10,554 nucleotides of DNA from Candidatus Zophobacter franzmannii (lineage in GTDB: Bacteria; Cloacimonadota; Cloacimonadia; Cloacimonadales; JAFGVF01). A program made the position numbers and the translations under genes. The notes below the pieces were generated by a model. That model did no database searches and was not told the origin of the DNA. It saw only the letters and a program-made list of their open reading frames with translations. The stretch is taken from assembly GCA_030765245.1 (NCBI GenBank), contig JAVCCX010000081.1:1-10554 (forward strand), given 5' to 3'. Shown piece after piece: positions 3,910-9,853 of the stretch; position 1 is the first letter of the stretch, and the number at the start of each line of letters is the position of its first letter.

Positions 3910-4773
3910 ATGACAAACAAAACACGCTCGGTAATCTTTATTCTACTGTCATCATTGTCATTTGCCTTGATGTCAGTATTTGTGAAACACCTGACTAGGA
4001 TCCCGGTACTGGAGAAGGTATTCTTCCGCAACCTAGTGAGTCTGGTAGTAACATTCCTTATGTTTAGGAAGGCATCCGGAAGTTTTACAGGGAAAAAAGA
4101 GAACCGCAAATATTTGATACTCCGCTCTCTGCTAGGATTGACGGGAGTATTTCTCTATTTTTATGCTATCAACAATCTTTATTTAGCAGATTCTGCGATG
4201 TTAAATAAGCTTTCACCCTTTTACGTTACCCTCTTCGCCTTTTTCTTTCTGAAAGAAAAGATCTATAAACAACACATTGTTGCTCTCGTGATTGTATTCC
4301 TCTCAGCCTTAATGATTATAAAGCCCCGCTTCGATATGTCAGTTCTTCCATCCCTTGCAGGTTTCCTATCGGCAATTTGTGCCGGTGCAGCCTACACGAC
4401 TGTACGTTATCTGGGAAATCAGGGCGAACAACCCAAGACCATAGTCTTCTACTTCTCCTTTATCTCTGTAATTGCCATATTCCCCGCAATGTTCTTTGTC
4501 TTTGTAAGACCAACCTTGATTGAGACTTTATCCCTCTTTGCAATTGGGCTCTTTGCTGCAGGTGGGCAATTCGGATTAACCTATGCCTACAAATACGCTA
4601 AGGCTTCTGAAGTCTCTATCTACAACTACACAAACATCGTCTTCGCTGCAATACTTGGGCTTTCCATCTGGAAGGAAATACCGGATATCTGGAGTCTTAT
4701 TGGGTCTGGTATTATTATCCTGACATCTATCTTTATATTTAGATTCAATAATCGGGAGAAAAGAGATAAGTAG
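3910..4773 (+). CDS. EamA/DMT-family permease
   Basis: Inner-membrane transporter of the drug/metabolite transporter superfamily, 287 residues, the usual length for a ten-helix two-repeat EamA protein. The first repeat spans about residues 8-138: hydrophobic segments near 8-25, 38-52, 68-90, 98-114 and 122-138. The second spans about 149-277, with the charged tail FNNREKRDK predicted cytoplasmic. The first repeat has the characteristic late-helix pattern ADSAMLNKLSPFYVTLFAFFFLKEK (92-116), split here only for description, and the second has the matching ASEVSIYNYTN...WKE (232-255). Substrate is unpredictable for this family (amino acids, purines and drugs are all known). No good Shine-Dalgarno site precedes ATG 3910, and upstream stop codons exclude a much longer form. 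It is not obviously part of the arsenic operon, from which it is separated by 171 nt. Confidence 0.92.
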   Translation: MTNKTRSVIFILLSSLSFALMSVFVKHLTRIPVLEKVFFRNLVSLVVTFLMFRKASGSFTGKKENRKYLILRSLLGLTGVFLYFYAINNLYLADSAMLNKLSPFYVTLFAFFFLKEKIYKQHIVALVIVFLSALMIIKPRFDMSVLPSLAGFLSAICAGAAYTTVRYLGNQGEQPKTIVFYFSFISVIAIFPAMFFVFVRPTLIETLSLFAIGLFAAGGQFGLTYAYKYAKASEVSIYNYTNIVFAAILGLSIWKEIPDIWSLIGSGIIILTSIFIFRFNNREKRDK

Positions 4774-4796
4774 TGAATTATACTTTAGCATTCACT
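4772..4796 (+). terminator. Weak hairpin after the EamA gene
   Basis: AGTGAAT (4772-4778) and ATTCACT (4790-4796) form a 7-bp stem with an 11-nt loop, overlapping the stop codon of the permease gene. It is AT-rich and lacks a T-tract, so a terminator role is uncertain; it may only protect the 3' end. Confidence 0.2.
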
Positions 4797-4850
4797 TCAG
4801 TTACAGACCACTATCACAATAAAGTTTCAACCCTGGCAATATTTTATTAC

Positions 4851-4879
4851 TTGCTTTTCATAATGTAATAGATTAATTT
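4851..4879 (+). promoter_or_regulatory. Candidate promoter of the arsenosugar operon
   Basis: TTGCTT (4851-4856) and TAATTT (4874-4879), 17 nt apart, form a plausible sigma-70 type -35/-10 pair upstream of the first operon gene. A TATATTTG at 4884-4891 also fits the Bacteroidota-type TAnnTTTG -7 element. The region is so AT-rich that either match could be chance. Confidence 0.22.
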
Positions 4880-4909
4880 GTAATATATTTGTGAATTAAA
4901 GGTGGTAGA

Positions 4910-4948
4910 ATGGATTTTAGTAGATTACTTTTTAGTAGGAATATATGA
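4910..4948 (+). CDS. 12-codon leader ORF overlapping the first operon gene
   Basis: ATG 4910 is preceded 4 nt earlier by a good Shine-Dalgarno sequence, AGGTGG (4900-4905). It encodes MDFSRLLFSRNI and stops at TGA 4946-4948, giving an ATGA overlap with the start of the following transferase gene (ATG 4945). The strong site belongs to this mini-frame; the transferase itself has only AGGA (4937-4940) 4 nt before its ATG. This layout suggests translational coupling through a leader peptide. It could also be the remnant of a shifted N terminus, but homologous transferases normally begin right at the IIPVYNE strand. No function is claimed for the peptide. Confidence 0.33.
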   Translation: MDFSRLLFSRNI

Positions 4949-5640
4949 TTTCCATTATCATTCCAGTTTACAACGAACCGAATATCAACACTACTATCGA
5001 AGAAATACGCAAGCAATCTTATCTAGATTACGAATTAATCATTGTAGATGGTCAGGAAGATGGGAACACAATCAATTTGATCGATGATGACAACTGCCTT
5101 AAGCTGAATTCTAAAGCCGGACGTGCTTGTCAATTGAATGCTGGAGCAAAAAAAGCTAAGGGTGATGCGATGCTTTTTCTGCACGCGGATAGTTTCTTAC
5201 CAGAAAACGGCTTGAAAATGATTGATGATATTATCAGAAGTGGTTTCAAAGTCGGAGCATTTGACCTCTGGATTGAAAGTAGGAATTTTATTTTACGGGA
5301 GTTTGTTTCCCGCATTAGTTCATTTCGGAGTAGACTGACCAGGTTTCCTTATGGAGACCAGGGGCATTTCTTCAGCAAAGAATACTTCCAAAAGATTGGA
5401 GGATATTCTGATATTCCCTTGATGGAAGATATAGAGATTATGCAACGGGTTAAACAACGGAAAGATAAGATCTTCATAATTCCACAAAAGATAATAACCT
5501 CTGCTCGCAGATGGGAAGAAGAGGGCTTACTTTTTGTGATGCTCAGGAATCCCATTTTATCCACTTTATATTATTTAGGTGTCCCGGCAGAAAAGTTGAG
5601 TAGATTTTATCCAAGAGCAAAGAATAAAAGAGAGGTATGA
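4945..5640 (+). CDS. Arsenosugar-cluster GT2-like transferase (TIGR04283 type)
   Basis: Family-2 glycosyltransferase fold protein, 231 residues, of the 'transferase 2, rSAM/selenodomain-associated' type now linked to arsenosugar biosynthesis. The N-terminal strand MISIIIPVYNE (1-11) is followed by the nucleotide-contact D35-G36, then the family hallmark GRACQLNAGAKKAKGD (59-74). LHADS (79-83) stands in the DxD position. Further features are PYGDQG (136-140), the likely catalytic MEDIE (160-164) and SARRWEEEG (186-194). The C terminus lacks a long membrane region. It is the first full gene of the operon and overlaps the next gene by 4 nt (ATGA). By association it should act on the product of ArsS, adding or exchanging the sugar aglycone, but donor and acceptor are inferred only from context. 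Confidence 0.9.
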   Translation: MISIIIPVYNEPNINTTIEEIRKQSYLDYELIIVDGQEDGNTINLIDDDNCLKLNSKAGRACQLNAGAKKAKGDAMLFLHADSFLPENGLKMIDDIIRSGFKVGAFDLWIESRNFILREFVSRISSFRSRLTRFPYGDQGHFFSKEYFQKIGGYSDIPLMEDIEIMQRVKQRKDKIFIIPQKIITSARRWEEEGLLFVMLRNPILSTLYYLGVPAEKLSRFYPRAKNKREV

Positions 5641-5975
5641 AAATGGATGTTTATTACAAATCAGAAGACTTGAAGAAGTTTGGCAATATTACCCGAGTTA
5701 ATGAAGAATTAGGTACAGCTTACTTTGATTATTACGGCAAAGCAATGGCAGAAGGTGCTCTCAGTGAAAGGGAAAAAGCTCTGATTGCCTTGGCCGTTGC
5801 GCACGCTCTCAAATGTCCATATTGCATCGAAGCTTATACAGAAGCCTGCCTGACAAAAGGTGCTGATGAAGAACAAATGAACGAAGCTGTACATGTCGCA
5901 GCAGCAATAGCTGCGGGTGTGATTCTGGTTCACAGCACCCAGATGATGAACAAAATTGATGAGACCCTGATCTAA
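5637..5975 (+). CDS. Arsenosugar-associated carboxymuconolactone decarboxylase/AhpD-like protein
   Basis: Small all-alpha protein (112 residues) of the CMD/AhpD-like fold, of the subtype regularly encoded beside ArsS. The core reads LSEREKALIALAVAH (42-56) followed by the redox pair Cys60-Pro-Tyr-Cys63 within CPYCIEAYTEAC. The residue three to four after the CxxC, His in AhpD, is Ala/Tyr here, so classical alkylhydroperoxidase chemistry is not assured. The MNEAVHVAAAIAAG helix (81-94) is typical. ATG 5637 overlaps the previous stop (ATGA). However, AGAGG (5631-5635) is better spaced (7 nt) for ATG 5643, so the protein may begin MDVYYKSED, two residues shorter. ArsS follows after 4 nt. A thiol-redox or arsenical-handling role is inferred from the fold and neighbours; the reaction is not known to me. 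Confidence 0.9.
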   Translation: MKMDVYYKSEDLKKFGNITRVNEELGTAYFDYYGKAMAEGALSEREKALIALAVAHALKCPYCIEAYTEACLTKGADEEQMNEAVHVAAAIAAGVILVHSTQMMNKIDETLI

Positions 5976-5979
5976 GAAA

Positions 5980-6954
5980 ATGGAAACAACCAAACAATTA
6001 ACAATTCTGCAGGAACATGCTCCATCCTTTGACGAGAAGATTTCCGGACCTTTGAATGCAATCAACCTGAAAACATTCCAAGTGAATATTGGTAGAAAAT
6101 GCAATCAGGCCTGCCGGCATTGTCATGTGAATGGATCCCCGCAGGATGAGCGGGAAATGACGAGGGAAACGGTTGATCTTTGCCTGGATGTGATAAGAAA
6201 TGTTTCTGATATTGAGACTATTGATCTAACAGGTGGTGCTCCGGAAATGAACGAGAATTTTCGTTATTTCGTGAAGGAAGCACGCAAAGCGGGAAAGCAT
6301 GTAATCGACCGTTGTAATCTAACGATTCTGGAAGAACCCGGCTATGAGTATCTTTATGATTTCTTATCGGACAATCAGGTTGAGATTGTTGCTTCACTAC
6401 CTCATTTTCGTTCCAGTTCCACAGATAGACAGAGAGGTGGTGGTGTTTTTGAGAAATCGATCCTTGCTCTTCAGAAACTGAACAAACTAGGTTATGGGGA
6501 ATCGCTGGCTTTGAATTTGGTTTATAATCCTACAGGCTTGTATATCAGCTCTCCTCAGGAGCAGTTAGAAAGAGAATTTAAAGAAAGTTTGTATCAAAAA
6601 TTCGGTATAGTCTTTAATAATTTATACTGCATAAATAACATCCCAATTAATCGCTTTCTGGAAAGCCTGATTCGGGTTGATAAACTGTCAGATTATATGG
6701 AAATTCTGGTGAATGCCTATAATCCCTGCACGATTGATAATCTTATGTGCCGTCATCAGATTTCGGTTGGCTACGATGGAAACTTATACGATTGCGACTT
6801 CAATCAGATTCTGGATATGAAACTAGCTCCGATTGGACACATCCAGGATTTCGATTATGACAAAATAATCAATCGGACTATCCAAACCGGGAATCATTGT
6901 TATGGCTGCACAGCCGGAAGCGGTTCCAGCTGAGGAGGCGAAATCTCGGAATAG
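5980..6954 (+). CDS. arsS: Arsenosugar biosynthesis radical SAM protein ArsS, probable selenoprotein (UGA at 6931 read as Sec318)
   Basis: Radical SAM enzyme believed to join the 5'-deoxyadenosyl group of SAM to dimethylarsenite, giving the precursor of arsenosugars. The CxxxCxxC cluster motif is Cys41/45/48 in NIGRKCNQACRHCHVNGSP (37-54). LTGGAPEMN (83-91) and the family block QRGGGVFEKS...LNLVYNP (151-184) follow. The Cys-rich C-terminal domain has Cys250, Cys257, Cys272 (LYDCDFNQ), Cys307 and Cys310 (HCYGCTAGSGSS). The frame meets UGA at 6931-6933 just after GSS. Family members carry Cys there, or selenocysteine in some lineages, followed by Gly. Reading UGA as Sec gives U318-GGEISE and a TAG stop at 6952-6954, so a 324-residue protein; a termination product would have 317. 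A SECIS-like hairpin follows the UGA. The Shine-Dalgarno is weak and the gap to the CMD gene is 4 nt, so coupled translation is likely. Identity of ArsS is firm; Sec insertion is inferred. Confidence 0.9.
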
Positions 6955-6970
6955 TTTATTCCGACTTCCT
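6933..6970 (+). promoter_or_regulatory. Candidate bacterial SECIS element overlapping the next gene's ribosome-binding region
   Basis: Immediately after the arsS UGA, TCGGAATA (6946-6953) and TATTCCGA (6957-6964) form a perfect 8-bp stem with loop GTT. The first loop base is G, and the loop begins 20 nt after the UGA. Both agree with described bacterial SECIS rules (short apical loop with an early G, UGA-to-loop spacing of roughly 16-37 nt). A lower helix AGGAGG (6933-6938) with CTTCCT (6965-6970) is also possible, leaving a 7-nt 5' bulge CGAAATC. The lower helix would hide a perfect Shine-Dalgarno and abut the AUG of the next gene (6971). The TAG stop of arsS lies inside the hairpin. Confidence 0.65.
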
Positions 6971-7705
6971 ATGAAAACCAAGATACTGATTCTCACCAAA
7001 TTTCCCGAAGCAGGGAAGGTAAAATCACGGCTGGCAAAAGAGATCGGCAACCACAAAGCTGCGGAAATATACAGAACTGTTCTTTTAAATAATTGGCAGC
7101 AGGCAAAAGAAACTGATCACGGAATCAGTATCGAATTTTCACCCCCTGATTCCAAAGATAAATTTCATAAGATGTTTGGAAGTAATGCTAAACTTAATCC
7201 GCAAGTTGGGAGTGATATTGGGTGGAAAATGGCAAACGCTTTTACAAATTGCTTCCAGCAGCAATTCGATGCGGCGATCCTGATCGGGGGCGATGCACCA
7301 AATATTTCTACACAGCTTTTTAACGAAGCTTTGACTTCTCTTCAAGATCATGACATTGTTTTAGGCCCAACTCATGATGGTGGTTATTTTCTCATTGGAT
7401 TTAAATGGGATAGCTTCGACACCAAATATTTCCAAAATATCAATTGGAGTACACCCAAAGTTTTTGAGCAGACTTCAGATATAATTCGTAAAAGCAATAA
7501 TAAACTATATCTTATTGAAAAAAGAATCGATCTGGATACTTTTCATGATGTGAAAGAGTTCCTAAGGTCAAATAAAGAAAGATCTGGAGTTTCAGGAAAG
7601 ATACTGGAGATTCTTGAATGTGAGGATTCCGATGAAGATAATAGTTTTAATACTGTTACTAATCATGCCGATCCTAGTATATGCTCAGACAGAGATCTAC
7701 GATAA
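6971..7705 (+). CDS. Arsenosugar-cluster CofC/GT-A-like transferase (TIGR04282 type)
   Basis: Nucleotidyl/glycosyl-transferase-fold protein of the 'transferase 1, rSAM/selenodomain-associated' family. The N terminus carries the phosphate-binding pattern LTKFPEAGKVKSRLAKE (8-24). Further on are LIGGDAPNIS (104-113), LGPTHDGGYFLIG (131-143), WSTPKVFEQT (159-168) and RIDLDTFHDV (185-194), the usual last family motif. Start ATG 6971 is chosen because homologues begin at the KILILTKFPE strand. In-frame ATG 6902 would add 23 residues that merely read the ArsS tail in another frame. No Shine-Dalgarno lies close by; AGGAGG is 32 nt upstream, or about 13 nt if the intervening hairpin forms. After about residue 216 there is a 28-residue tail with no family look (CEDSDEDNSFN...). 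It extends 74 nt into the next gene and may reflect a frame change. Likely acts with the GT2-like protein on the arsenosugar. Confidence 0.88.
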   Translation: MKTKILILTKFPEAGKVKSRLAKEIGNHKAAEIYRTVLLNNWQQAKETDHGISIEFSPPDSKDKFHKMFGSNAKLNPQVGSDIGWKMANAFTNCFQQQFDAAILIGGDAPNISTQLFNEALTSLQDHDIVLGPTHDGGYFLIGFKWDSFDTKYFQNINWSTPKVFEQTSDIIRKSNNKLYLIEKRIDLDTFHDVKEFLRSNKERSGVSGKILEILECEDSDEDNSFNTVTNHADPSICSDRDLR

Positions 7706-8372
7706 ATGGGATGAGTTGACAGGGAAATATATAAGCCAAAGTTTTAAAGAAAATATAGAATTCAATAGTGTTGATTATGCTCAATTAAAGAACGACACAA
7801 CATTTTCAGGAATTATCGAACTCCTGATGGATTTTGATATTTCACAATTACAATCCAAAAATCAGAAATTAGCCTTCTGGATAAATGTATATAACATTGC
7901 TGCTATAAAAGTGGTATCAGATGATAATATTCCAAAGAGTATCAAAGATGCAGGGAGTTTGTTCAAGCCGGTTTGGAAGAATGATGCGATCAATGTGGGT
8001 GGAATTGTTTATTCTTTGGGAGAGATAGAGCATAAAGTATTGCGTCCCATGAATGAACCTTTAATCCACTTTGGCATTGTCTGTGCTTCTCTTTCCTGCC
8101 CTGATCTTAGAAACGAAGCTTATAGACCTCAATCGGTCATTGAGCAGTTAACAGCTAACACAAAGTCATTTCTACTGAATACATCAAAAGGATTAAAGAG
8201 CGATCAATCAAGAAAAGTGGTTGAGTTATCTGCTATTTTTAAATGGTTTGAAGATGATTTTGCAATAGGTATTCCTCAATTTATTTTTGAGAACTCAGGA
8301 ATTGATGTAAAAGGATACAAGATCAAATACCTCGATTACAACTGGGATTTGAACAACCTTGAGATAAAGTGA
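7632..8372 (+). CDS. Secreted DUF547-domain protein
   Basis: Protein of 246 residues with a clear Sec signal peptide: MKIIVLILLLIMPILVYAQ, likely cleaved after VYA, so it should be periplasmic or extracytoplasmic. The DUF547 domain follows, recognised by KLAFWINVYNIAAI, LGEIEHKVLRP, HFGIVCASLSCPDL with two cysteines, SAIFKWFEDDF and the terminal YLDYNWDLN. DUF547 proteins are common in arsenosugar and TVP38-oxidoreductase neighbourhoods, but their biochemical activity is unknown to me; the conserved Cys/His/Glu residues suggest a papain-like or transglutaminase-like fold. Start ATG 7632 has GAGGA (7622-7626) 5 nt upstream and makes residue 1 the start of the signal peptide. The in-frame TTG at 7614 would add NVRIP before it. 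The gene overlaps the preceding transferase frame by 74 nt, and the next gene begins after 65 nt. Confidence 0.88.
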   Translation: MKIIVLILLLIMPILVYAQTEIYDKWDELTGKYISQSFKENIEFNSVDYAQLKNDTTFSGIIELLMDFDISQLQSKNQKLAFWINVYNIAAIKVVSDDNIPKSIKDAGSLFKPVWKNDAINVGGIVYSLGEIEHKVLRPMNEPLIHFGIVCASLSCPDLRNEAYRPQSVIEQLTANTKSFLLNTSKGLKSDQSRKVVELSAIFKWFEDDFAIGIPQFIFENSGIDVKGYKIKYLDYNWDLNNLEIK

Positions 8373-8437: not shown

Positions 8438-9853
8438 ATGAAATACGATTTTCACATTATTGTTATTGGAGCTGGAAGTGCCGGTCTTACTGTTGCATCC
8501 GGTGCTAGTGGATTGGGTGCCAAAGTTGCTCTTATCGAAAACCACAAAATGGGTGGTGACTGCCTGAATTACGGTTGTGTTCCCAGCAAAGCTTTTCTAA
8601 GAACAGCACATCTGGCTAAAGACATTTCAAATTCATCTGAATTTGCCCTTGATGCAAAATTGGGAGAAGTTAATTTAAAAAAGGTGATGCAGCGTGTCAA
8701 AAGTGTTATCGCTGAGATCGAACCGCACGATTCTAAAGAACGTTTTGAAGGTTTGGGAGTGAAAGTTTTCATGGGTGAACCTGAAGTTATCGATAATCAC
8801 ACTGTTAAGATAAACGACCAACTAATGACAGGCAAAAAGTTAGTTTTTGCTACCGGATCAACAGCTAGAGTTCCAGCTATTCCCGGCTTGGAAAATGTAG
8901 ATTATCTTACCAATCAAACTATCTTTGATTTGGAGAATTTACCTGAGCATCTGGTCATTATTGGTGGTGGTCCTATCGGGTTGGAATTGGGACAAGGCTT
9001 CCGACATCTTGGTTCCAAAGTTACCATTATTGATCAAAACGATCACCTCTTCCCAAAAGATGATCCCGAAGTGTGGGATGTAATGAAGCAGGTTTTTGCC
9101 AAAGATGGAGTAGATCTCTGTCTGGAATGCAAAGTGAAATCAATAAGTGGGAAAGAGAATCAGAAATCTGTGACTGTAGAAATGAATGGAGCAGAAAAAG
9201 TGATATCCGGAGATGCACTATTGGTATCTGCAGGACGAATTCCAAACTCAGAGCACCTGAACCTGGGGAAACTCGGTGTGGAAACAGATAAGCGCGGATT
9301 CATTATTACTAACAAGAAGATGCGGACGTCAGTCAGCAATATTTTCGCTGCCGGAGATGTAACTGGACCTTTCCAATTTACTCATATGGCTGGTTATCAA
9401 GCTGGTAAAATTGTACCAAATGCAATCCTGGGTTTTGGTGGAAAATCTTCTTATACAATGATTCCCTGGACGACTTACACCAAACCGGAAGTAGCTCATA
9501 TTGGTTATACGCAACCCTGGGCAGAGCAGCTTGGGATATATCAAGAATCAATGACCTTTCCGTTAGAAGAAATTGATCGAGCCAAAGCAGACAATGACAG
9601 AGATGGATTTCTGAAACTAATTTTAGGAAAAAAAGGTAAAATAATTGGTGCAACTTTAGTGGGAGAAAAAGCAGGAGAGATGATCCCGGTAGCTTCTTTA
9701 GCAATTGCCAAAGGATTGAAAGCGTCTACTTTCGCATCGTTCATTTTTTCATATCCTACTCAAGCTGAGATTTTCCAGCGAATCAGTTTTAATTATCTAA
9801 AACGTTCATTCAAAGATTGGATGAAAGAATTGATAAAGAACATATTCTTGTAA
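8438..9853 (+). CDS. Mercuric-reductase-like FAD/NAD(P) disulfide oxidoreductase
   Basis: Class I flavoprotein disulfide reductase, 471 residues. FAD-binding IGAGSAG (10-16) is followed by the redox-active pair Cys42/Cys47 in GGDCLNYGCVPSKAF (39-53) and ATGSTARVP (138-146). The NAD(P) domain has VIIGGGPIGLELG (173-185), and the second FAD strand is IFAAGDVTGP. The dimerisation domain ends with FSYPTQAEIFQR. Dihydrolipoamide dehydrogenase has a catalytic His-Pro at this place; here it is Tyr439-Pro440, as in MerA-like proteins. There is no N-terminal heavy-metal domain and no C-terminal vicinal Cys-Cys, so Hg(II) reduction is unlikely. The start has AAAGGA (8425-8430) 7 nt upstream. Such proteins are often adjacent or fused to TVP38/TMEM64 proteins, and the next gene is one. 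A role in reducing a disulfide, quinone or arsenical in the operon's pathway is inference. Confidence 0.92.
   Translation: MKYDFHIIVIGAGSAGLTVASGASGLGAKVALIENHKMGGDCLNYGCVPSKAFLRTAHLAKDISNSSEFALDAKLGEVNLKKVMQRVKSVIAEIEPHDSKERFEGLGVKVFMGEPEVIDNHTVKINDQLMTGKKLVFATGSTARVPAIPGLENVDYLTNQTIFDLENLPEHLVIIGGGPIGLELGQGFRHLGSKVTIIDQNDHLFPKDDPEVWDVMKQVFAKDGVDLCLECKVKSISGKENQKSVTVEMNGAEKVISGDALLVSAGRIPNSEHLNLGKLGVETDKRGFIITNKKMRTSVSNIFAAGDVTGPFQFTHMAGYQAGKIVPNAILGFGGKSSYTMIPWTTYTKPEVAHIGYTQPWAEQLGIYQESMTFPLEEIDRAKADNDRDGFLKLILGKKGKIIGATLVGEKAGEMIPVASLAIAKGLKASTFASFIFSYPTQAEIFQRISFNYLKRSFKDWMKELIKNIFL

Follow-up and report, generated by a model that had tools for sequence, protein, structure and literature searches.

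Here, we describe an arsS gene that, with very little doubt, encodes a selenoprotein: the UGA codon at 6931-6933 would be recoded as selenocysteine (Sec) under the direction of the hairpin that follows it, and the true stop codon supplies the first base of that hairpin's loop. The gene is found in a 10,554-nucleotide stretch of DNA from Candidatus Zophobacter franzmannii (the window, to which all positions refer; Table 1). That this UGA is recoded inside the cell, as the original prediction proposed, is almost certain from the aligned column of Cys and UGA codons, the conservation of the hairpin, and the selA, selB, selC and selD genes of the same genome.

Results

The arsS frame starts at ATG 5980, the codons just 5' of the TGA are HCYGCTAGSGSS, and the protein up to that point ends ...NHCYGCTAGSGSS. 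Direct reading agrees with the original prediction in both coordinates and description, with GGEISE running from the UGA to a TAG at 6952 and a perfect 8-bp stem with a G-first loop placed 20 nt after the UGA. The list of open reading frames ends arsS at 6933 (317 aa), and a standard annotation therefore misses seven residues, the truncation that had been anticipated. Read through, the protein scores 426 bits against TIGR04167 (NCBIfam; cut-off 300), aligned from position 3 to position 303 of a 303-position profile, and also matches PF04055 and PF12345 (DUF3641). NCBIfam names the TIGR04167 family a (seleno)protein; 'selenodomain' is, we take it, an old name of this radical SAM family.

Table 1. 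Features in and around arsS, with the evidence for each
Feature	Position	Strand	Evidence
TIGR04283 arsenosugar-associated glycosyltransferase	4945..5640	+	224.8 bits
TIGR04169 AhpD-like peroxidase-like protein (CPYC, without UGA)	5637..5975	+	172.4 bits
arsS, 324-residue radical SAM (seleno)protein with Sec predicted at 318	5980..6954	+	TIGR04167, PF04055, PF12345
In-frame UGA, predicted to be read as selenocysteine, residue 318	6931..6933	+	invariant Cys/UGA column in 49 aligned members
Predicted lower stem 6933-6938/6965-6970, extends hairpin	6933..6970	+	fold prediction
C-terminal tail GGEISE (GGA GGC GAA ATC TCG GAA)	6934..6951	+	direct sequence reading
SECIS-like hairpin with an upper stem of 8 bp (6946-6953/6957-6964) and a GUU loop (6954-6956)	6946..6964	+	conservation, folding
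True stop UAG, whose G is loop position 1 of the SECIS hairpin	6952..6954	+	direct sequence reading
TIGR04282 glycosyltransferase	6971..7705	+	177 bits; start is the authors' choice
DUF547 protein	7632..8372	+	PF04784; start codon inferred
FAD-dependent pyridine nucleotide-disulphide oxidoreductase	8438..9853	+	profile matches

Homologous loci were kept from a genome collection (80 of 94) and from phylum-wide searches. The C-terminal pattern was readable in 150 loci: the codon is TGT or TGC in 106 of them and TGA in the other 44, which include one duplicate; one locus missed by the first pattern (L195) was added later to give 44 distinct UGA genes, and some counts below have n = 43. L169 (the same gene as L049) and L124 and L127 (both cut off) were excluded, and L170, missed by the pattern, is absent from all counts. 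Among the homologues read, codon 318 is only ever Cys or UGA (106 Cys and 44 UGA, plus Cys in L170), and the column is invariant in a 49-member protein alignment in which U was counted as C. The residue stands after GSS, GST or GFT and before xG, as in the ArsS family. The expectation of a Cys or Sec at codon 318 was borne out in every homologue with a readable C-terminus, and none of those read ends at GSS. Alignment of the UGA with Cys, one mark of a bacterial selenoprotein gene, is seen for 106 homologues. One of the Cys genes, L113 (arsS of Verrucomicrobia isolate AH-558-L06), has a frame shift before the C-terminus, from a sequencing error or a broken gene; its C-terminal Cys is counted among the 106.

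Searches across whole phyla provide the rates, as the 38 UGA stretches were picked by a flagged TGA. ArsS was found in 3 of 124 genomes of the window's phylum, in two families, all three with one in-frame TGA. The phylum to which G166 (the Desulfobacterales record) belongs gave 124 ArsS matches in 120 of 395 genomes; 40 of these have an inside stop, namely 39 TGA (one each), one TAG (G454, scoring under the cut-off) and no TAA, with the codon unread in G454 and in 54 of the 124 matches, these being without an inside TGA. The G125 phylum has ArsS in 3 of 40 genomes, one with TGA.

Little can be concluded from a single TGA in this assembly, as lepA (named by look; L040, contig 126, minus strand, approximately 4194-4883) is also interrupted by an in-frame TGA, after GVVVLV. 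That position is presumably Arg in relatives, and the interruption is probably a consensus error or a nonsense change. Such a stray codon is what could be said for a sequencing or assembly error that turned TGT or TGC into TGA at arsS codon 318. Against this stand two other assemblies of the same order, which have the identical UGA in proteins 70-72% identical to the window ArsS and the hairpin at the same place, with a stem in L011 that differs in sequence yet stays paired. An error at codon 318 is thus extremely unlikely and close to refuted.

The selenocysteine machinery is present in the genome, which is 83% complete. A tRNA-Sec with anticodon UCA was detected at 60.4 bits, over the Rfam cut-off; SelA (529.5 bits) and SelB (313.1 bits) are adjacent on contig 205; and SelD (372.7 bits) has UGA as its own active-site codon (TTAAG-U-GAKLGPG), with a hairpin after it. 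Absence of selB or selC had been named as an outcome that would speak against recoding, and the genome search returned all four sel genes. The selD gene (L045, contig 145) is flanked by cysteine-desulfurase-like and YedF-like genes (named by look).

SelB was compared in two sets of genomes: 45 genomes, made up of 2 relatives and 43 of the 80 loci chosen for spread and including all UGA ones; and the UGA genomes of the G166 phylum (36 of 37, as G166 itself belongs to the first set) together with the 30 best-scoring Cys genomes. SelB was over the cut-off in 40 of 42 UGA genomes (this genome, 5 of 5 others and 34 of 36 further) versus 38 of 70 Cys genomes (15 of 40 and 23 of 30), with a Fisher p of 1.7e-6 that serves as a guide only, as do the other SelB p values, since the genomes are related and the sets are not random. 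Taken by itself, the G166 phylum shows a weak contrast (34/36 vs 23/30, p 0.07). The two UGA genomes in which SelB was not found, G330 and G509, are small (1.9 and 2.0 Mb).

Two further readings of the UGA bear on these results. Were it an ordinary stop, ArsS would be a protein of 317 residues without its last conserved residue, a reading that suits the indirect nature of the evidence for readthrough and a post-UGA tail of only six residues. It is very improbable given that the column is Cys in 106 + 1 non-UGA homologues read, that the GGE after the UGA matches the family, and that a SECIS-like hairpin and SelABCD are present. A changed genetic code in which UGA is read as some other amino acid (e.g., Trp) has nothing beyond the open frame in its favor and can hardly be credited, as the Sec machinery is present, the aligned residue is Cys, and 19 of 43 UGA genes, in other lineages, end with TGA as the true stop after a six-residue tail. 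Recoding as Sec is the reading followed here.

All 8 pairs of the hairpin are perfect, and 20 nt separate its loop from the UGA. In its available text, PMC13188914 gives for a bacterial SECIS a loop of 3-9 nt, a stem of 4-16 bp, a G in the first two loop bases, a spacing of 16-37 nt, and a minimum free energy of at most -7.5 kcal/mol. A check against a bacterial SECIS model had been suggested with the original prediction, and the arsS hairpin (GUU, 8 bp, G first, 20 nt) fits this geometry as given there. The isolated upper stem, at -7.4 kcal/mol, falls just short of the energy limit, while the local fold has -13.9 kcal/mol (z -2.14), a value matched or bettered by 8 of 200 shuffles. The fold differs in the relative L010, where the lower stem is not formed. 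Dinucleotide shuffles contain such an 8-bp G-loop stem in 7 of 5000 cases at 18-21 nt and in 35 of 5000 at 16-37 nt. Of the 455 TGA trinucleotides on both strands of the window, 11 are followed by such a stem at 16-37 nt. An Rfam scan of 6850-7050 gave nothing up to E = 1. On its own, the arsS hairpin is modest and only moderately unusual, within what shuffles sometimes give; it is beyond chance because the UGA and the hairpin position are conserved in homologues.

At 18-21 nt, a G-loop stem (5 bp or more, with a G among the first two bases of the loop) is found in 37 of 43 UGA genes versus 8 of 106 Cys genes (Fisher 6e-21, rows related), leaving six UGA genes without one. Spacing in UGA genes peaks at 19 nt (35/43, against 5/106 Cys genes) and 20 nt (23/43, against 1/106). 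When stems only were evaluated, the -7.5 kcal/mol limit was passed by 25 of 44 UGA loci (one a duplicate) versus 6 of 106 Cys loci. Within the group to which the window belongs, a stem base is changed in L011 with pairing kept, and L049 has no G-loop stem of even 4 bp at 17-23 nt, other hairpins being predicted there.

Covariation was assessed in an alignment of 14 of the 44 UGA genes, all from the G166 phylum and in one common register, with the window's own group outside it. The helix in these 14 genes has 87.8% standard pairs and a covariation score of 0.311; shuffles give 0.146, and none of 500 reaches the observed score. Changes on both sides occur in 3 of 7 pairs, a value that 164 of 500 shuffles reach and that slides of +1 to +3 equal. 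Cells changed on both sides number 9 (2 of 500 shuffles as high) versus 11 at slide +3; the remaining measures drop when the helix is slid.

The true stop codon is in the apical loop in 33 of 44 UGA genes, in the stem in 4 and outside in 6, with no hairpin found in one. A tail of six residues follows codon 318 in 32 of 43 UGA genes, and one of five residues in 77 of 106 Cys genes. Stops are TGA in 22, TAG in 19 and TAA in 3 UGA genes, versus TGA in 45, TAA in 38 and TAG in 23 Cys genes. TAA is thus rarer in UGA genes (p 2e-4; within the G166 phylum 3/39 vs 10/30, p 0.011), and all three of its occurrences there lie outside the hairpin. Where the stop is TGA, a G follows it in 21 of 22 UGA genes versus 9 of 45 Cys genes (p 2e-9). 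In 22 of the 44 UGA genes, UGA serves both as the Sec codon and as the stop. The simplest reading of these sequences is that the loop needs its G, which UAG or UGA-G would supply.

A tree was built from 131 proteins (26 UGA, 105 Cys), without codon 318 and the tail and with L113 left out; of the 38 UGA genes, 20 were retrieved at full length for this purpose. The Sec/Cys state needs three changes on this tree versus approximately 24 when labels are shuffled. The UGA genes fall into three groups: the window with L010, L011 and L049, in which L049 joins with a support of 83 (unstarred); three genes that include the Nitrospirota record; and 19 genes that include the Desulfobacterales record. The nearest row outside the phylum by path length is a Cys gene, L053, of a Zixiibacteriota record. 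The tree is unrooted, and gain of Sec is therefore indistinguishable from its loss. Three rows titled Klebsiella pneumoniae or Akkermansia muciniphila (L107, L058 and L061) group with ArsS from Verrucomicrobiota metagenome-assembled genomes; the Klebsiella title looks wrong.

The order TIGR04283, TIGR04169, ArsS, TIGR04282, DUF547 and FAD oxidoreductase also occurs in the relatives G016 and G031 (by look), and in the window a VTT-domain protein comes after the FAD oxidoreductase. The ATG of the TIGR04282 gene is 6 nt 3' of the hairpin upper stem. AGGAGG at 6933-6938 was considered as a ribosome-binding site for this gene and dropped, as GGnGGn encodes the conserved GlyGly. If the DUF547 start at 7632 is correct, the TIGR04282 and DUF547 genes overlap by 74 nt (7632-7705) in different frames.

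No ArsM was recognised by look among the ORFs listed around arsS in G016 and G031. The ArsM model NF008823 gave nothing over its cut-off in this genome at 83% completeness (best 19.3 bits) and no match at E <= 1e-40 in G016 (98% complete) or G031 (95% complete). In a search covering UGA genomes only, it has matches in 19 of the 41 others, over the cut-off in 13. One in-frame TGA lies inside 9 of the 24 ArsM-model matches of UGA-arsS genomes, and TAA or TAG in 3 others; ArsM selenoproteins are listed in the available text of a review (PMC13188914).

Discussion

A 'Radical SAM domain protein, TIGR04167, GxxU, AAR34688.1' is listed as a predicted selenoprotein in the available text of two sources (PMC13188914, PMC9312934). 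The Sec form of TIGR04167 (rSAM_SeCys/ArsS) resembles the window ArsS in family, in Sec position (GxxU: G315-S-S-U318), in a SECIS-like hairpin, and in partner genes that NCBIfam names arsenosugar-associated. The likeness to AAR34688.1 is by review entry rather than residue by residue, and the entries, in their available text, do not contain the stop in the loop. Because this Sec form is already in catalogues, the finding is less novel: the window arsS adds a member to a catalogued type, and the stop-in-loop design is the one part for which no description was found. No publication on a stop codon in or overlapping a bacterial SECIS was found by title or start of abstract, and one may still be published; a literature search joining ArsS or radical SAM selenoprotein with arsenosugar and selenocysteine found none. 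The TIGR04167 family is not named in the available text of PMC1088965. ArsS Cys forms (from cyanobacteria, Verrucomicrobiota, Bacteroidota and others) are like the window protein over the whole length, including CxxxCxxC, C257/C272/C307/C310 and the GSS-C-xG end; they differ in having TGT or TGC for UGA, a tail mostly of 5 residues, and a G-loop stem of 5 bp or more (18-21 nt) in only 8 of 106.

In the mechanism we propose, SelB with Sec-tRNA(UCA) would bind the hairpin, which has its loop 20 nt 3' of the UGA, and the ribosome would insert Sec instead of stopping. It would then open the hairpin, read GGEISE, and terminate at the UAG in the loop. Selection on the loop might on this account dictate both the stop codon and the next base, and SelB binding could affect termination or re-initiation and make the operon selenium-responsive; taken as a whole, this is a doubtful proposal, of which the stop-in-loop half is seen in the sequences and the regulatory half is speculation.

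The predicted ArsS structure has a mean pLDDT of 95.3 (last block 66). Foldseek matches it, at probability 1.00 in each case, to SkfB (6efn, query TM 0.57), EpeE (8ai1-8ai6, 0.48-0.52), BlsE (7vob, 0.51) and BtrN (4m7t, 0.35), which we take to be grouped as SPASM/Twitch radical SAM enzymes. ArsS shares with these the spacing C-x9-G-x4-C then CxxC at 13-16% identity. CxxxCxxC (41, 45, 48) would bind the SAM cluster, and C257, C272, C307 and C310, invariant in the 49-member alignment, probably bind one auxiliary cluster. We assume that C257-x9-G-x4-C272 with C307-x2-C310 resembles the complete ligand set for one such cluster, as in Twitch enzymes. The residue lost to truncation had been called probably catalytic or metal-ligating. 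The auxiliary cluster could draw its ligands from four other invariant Cys, which would leave residue 318 as an extra thiol or selenol and answers the point in part. Sec318, as a further conserved selenol, may handle an As(III) substrate, whether as a ligand, as a selenyl leaving or reducing group during adenosylation, or in a selenyl radical relay.

The ArsS product, in work by Cheng and colleagues from 2021, is said to be 5'-deoxy-5'-dimethylarsinoyl-adenosine. According to the available text of PMC12159101, a radical SAM enzyme, which is ArsS by the reference cited there, adenosylates arsenic in oxo-arsenosugar synthesis. For the window, 'arsenosugar biosynthesis' stands as a family name rather than for a demonstrated pathway. 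Three genomes of the same phylum with arsS and without a recognisable ArsM raise the question of the source of the methylated arsenic, or of the true substrate.

Standard annotation leaves the enzyme seven residues short and loses an invariant position, which would carry over to cloned or modelled versions. TAG or TGA-G after the Sec codon is a suggested sequence mark of Sec-type arsS genes. A stop in the SECIS loop places recoding, termination and protein sequence all in one compact RNA segment, and exchange of Sec and Cys within a radical SAM family that forms C-As bonds offers natural pairs for testing what selenium adds.
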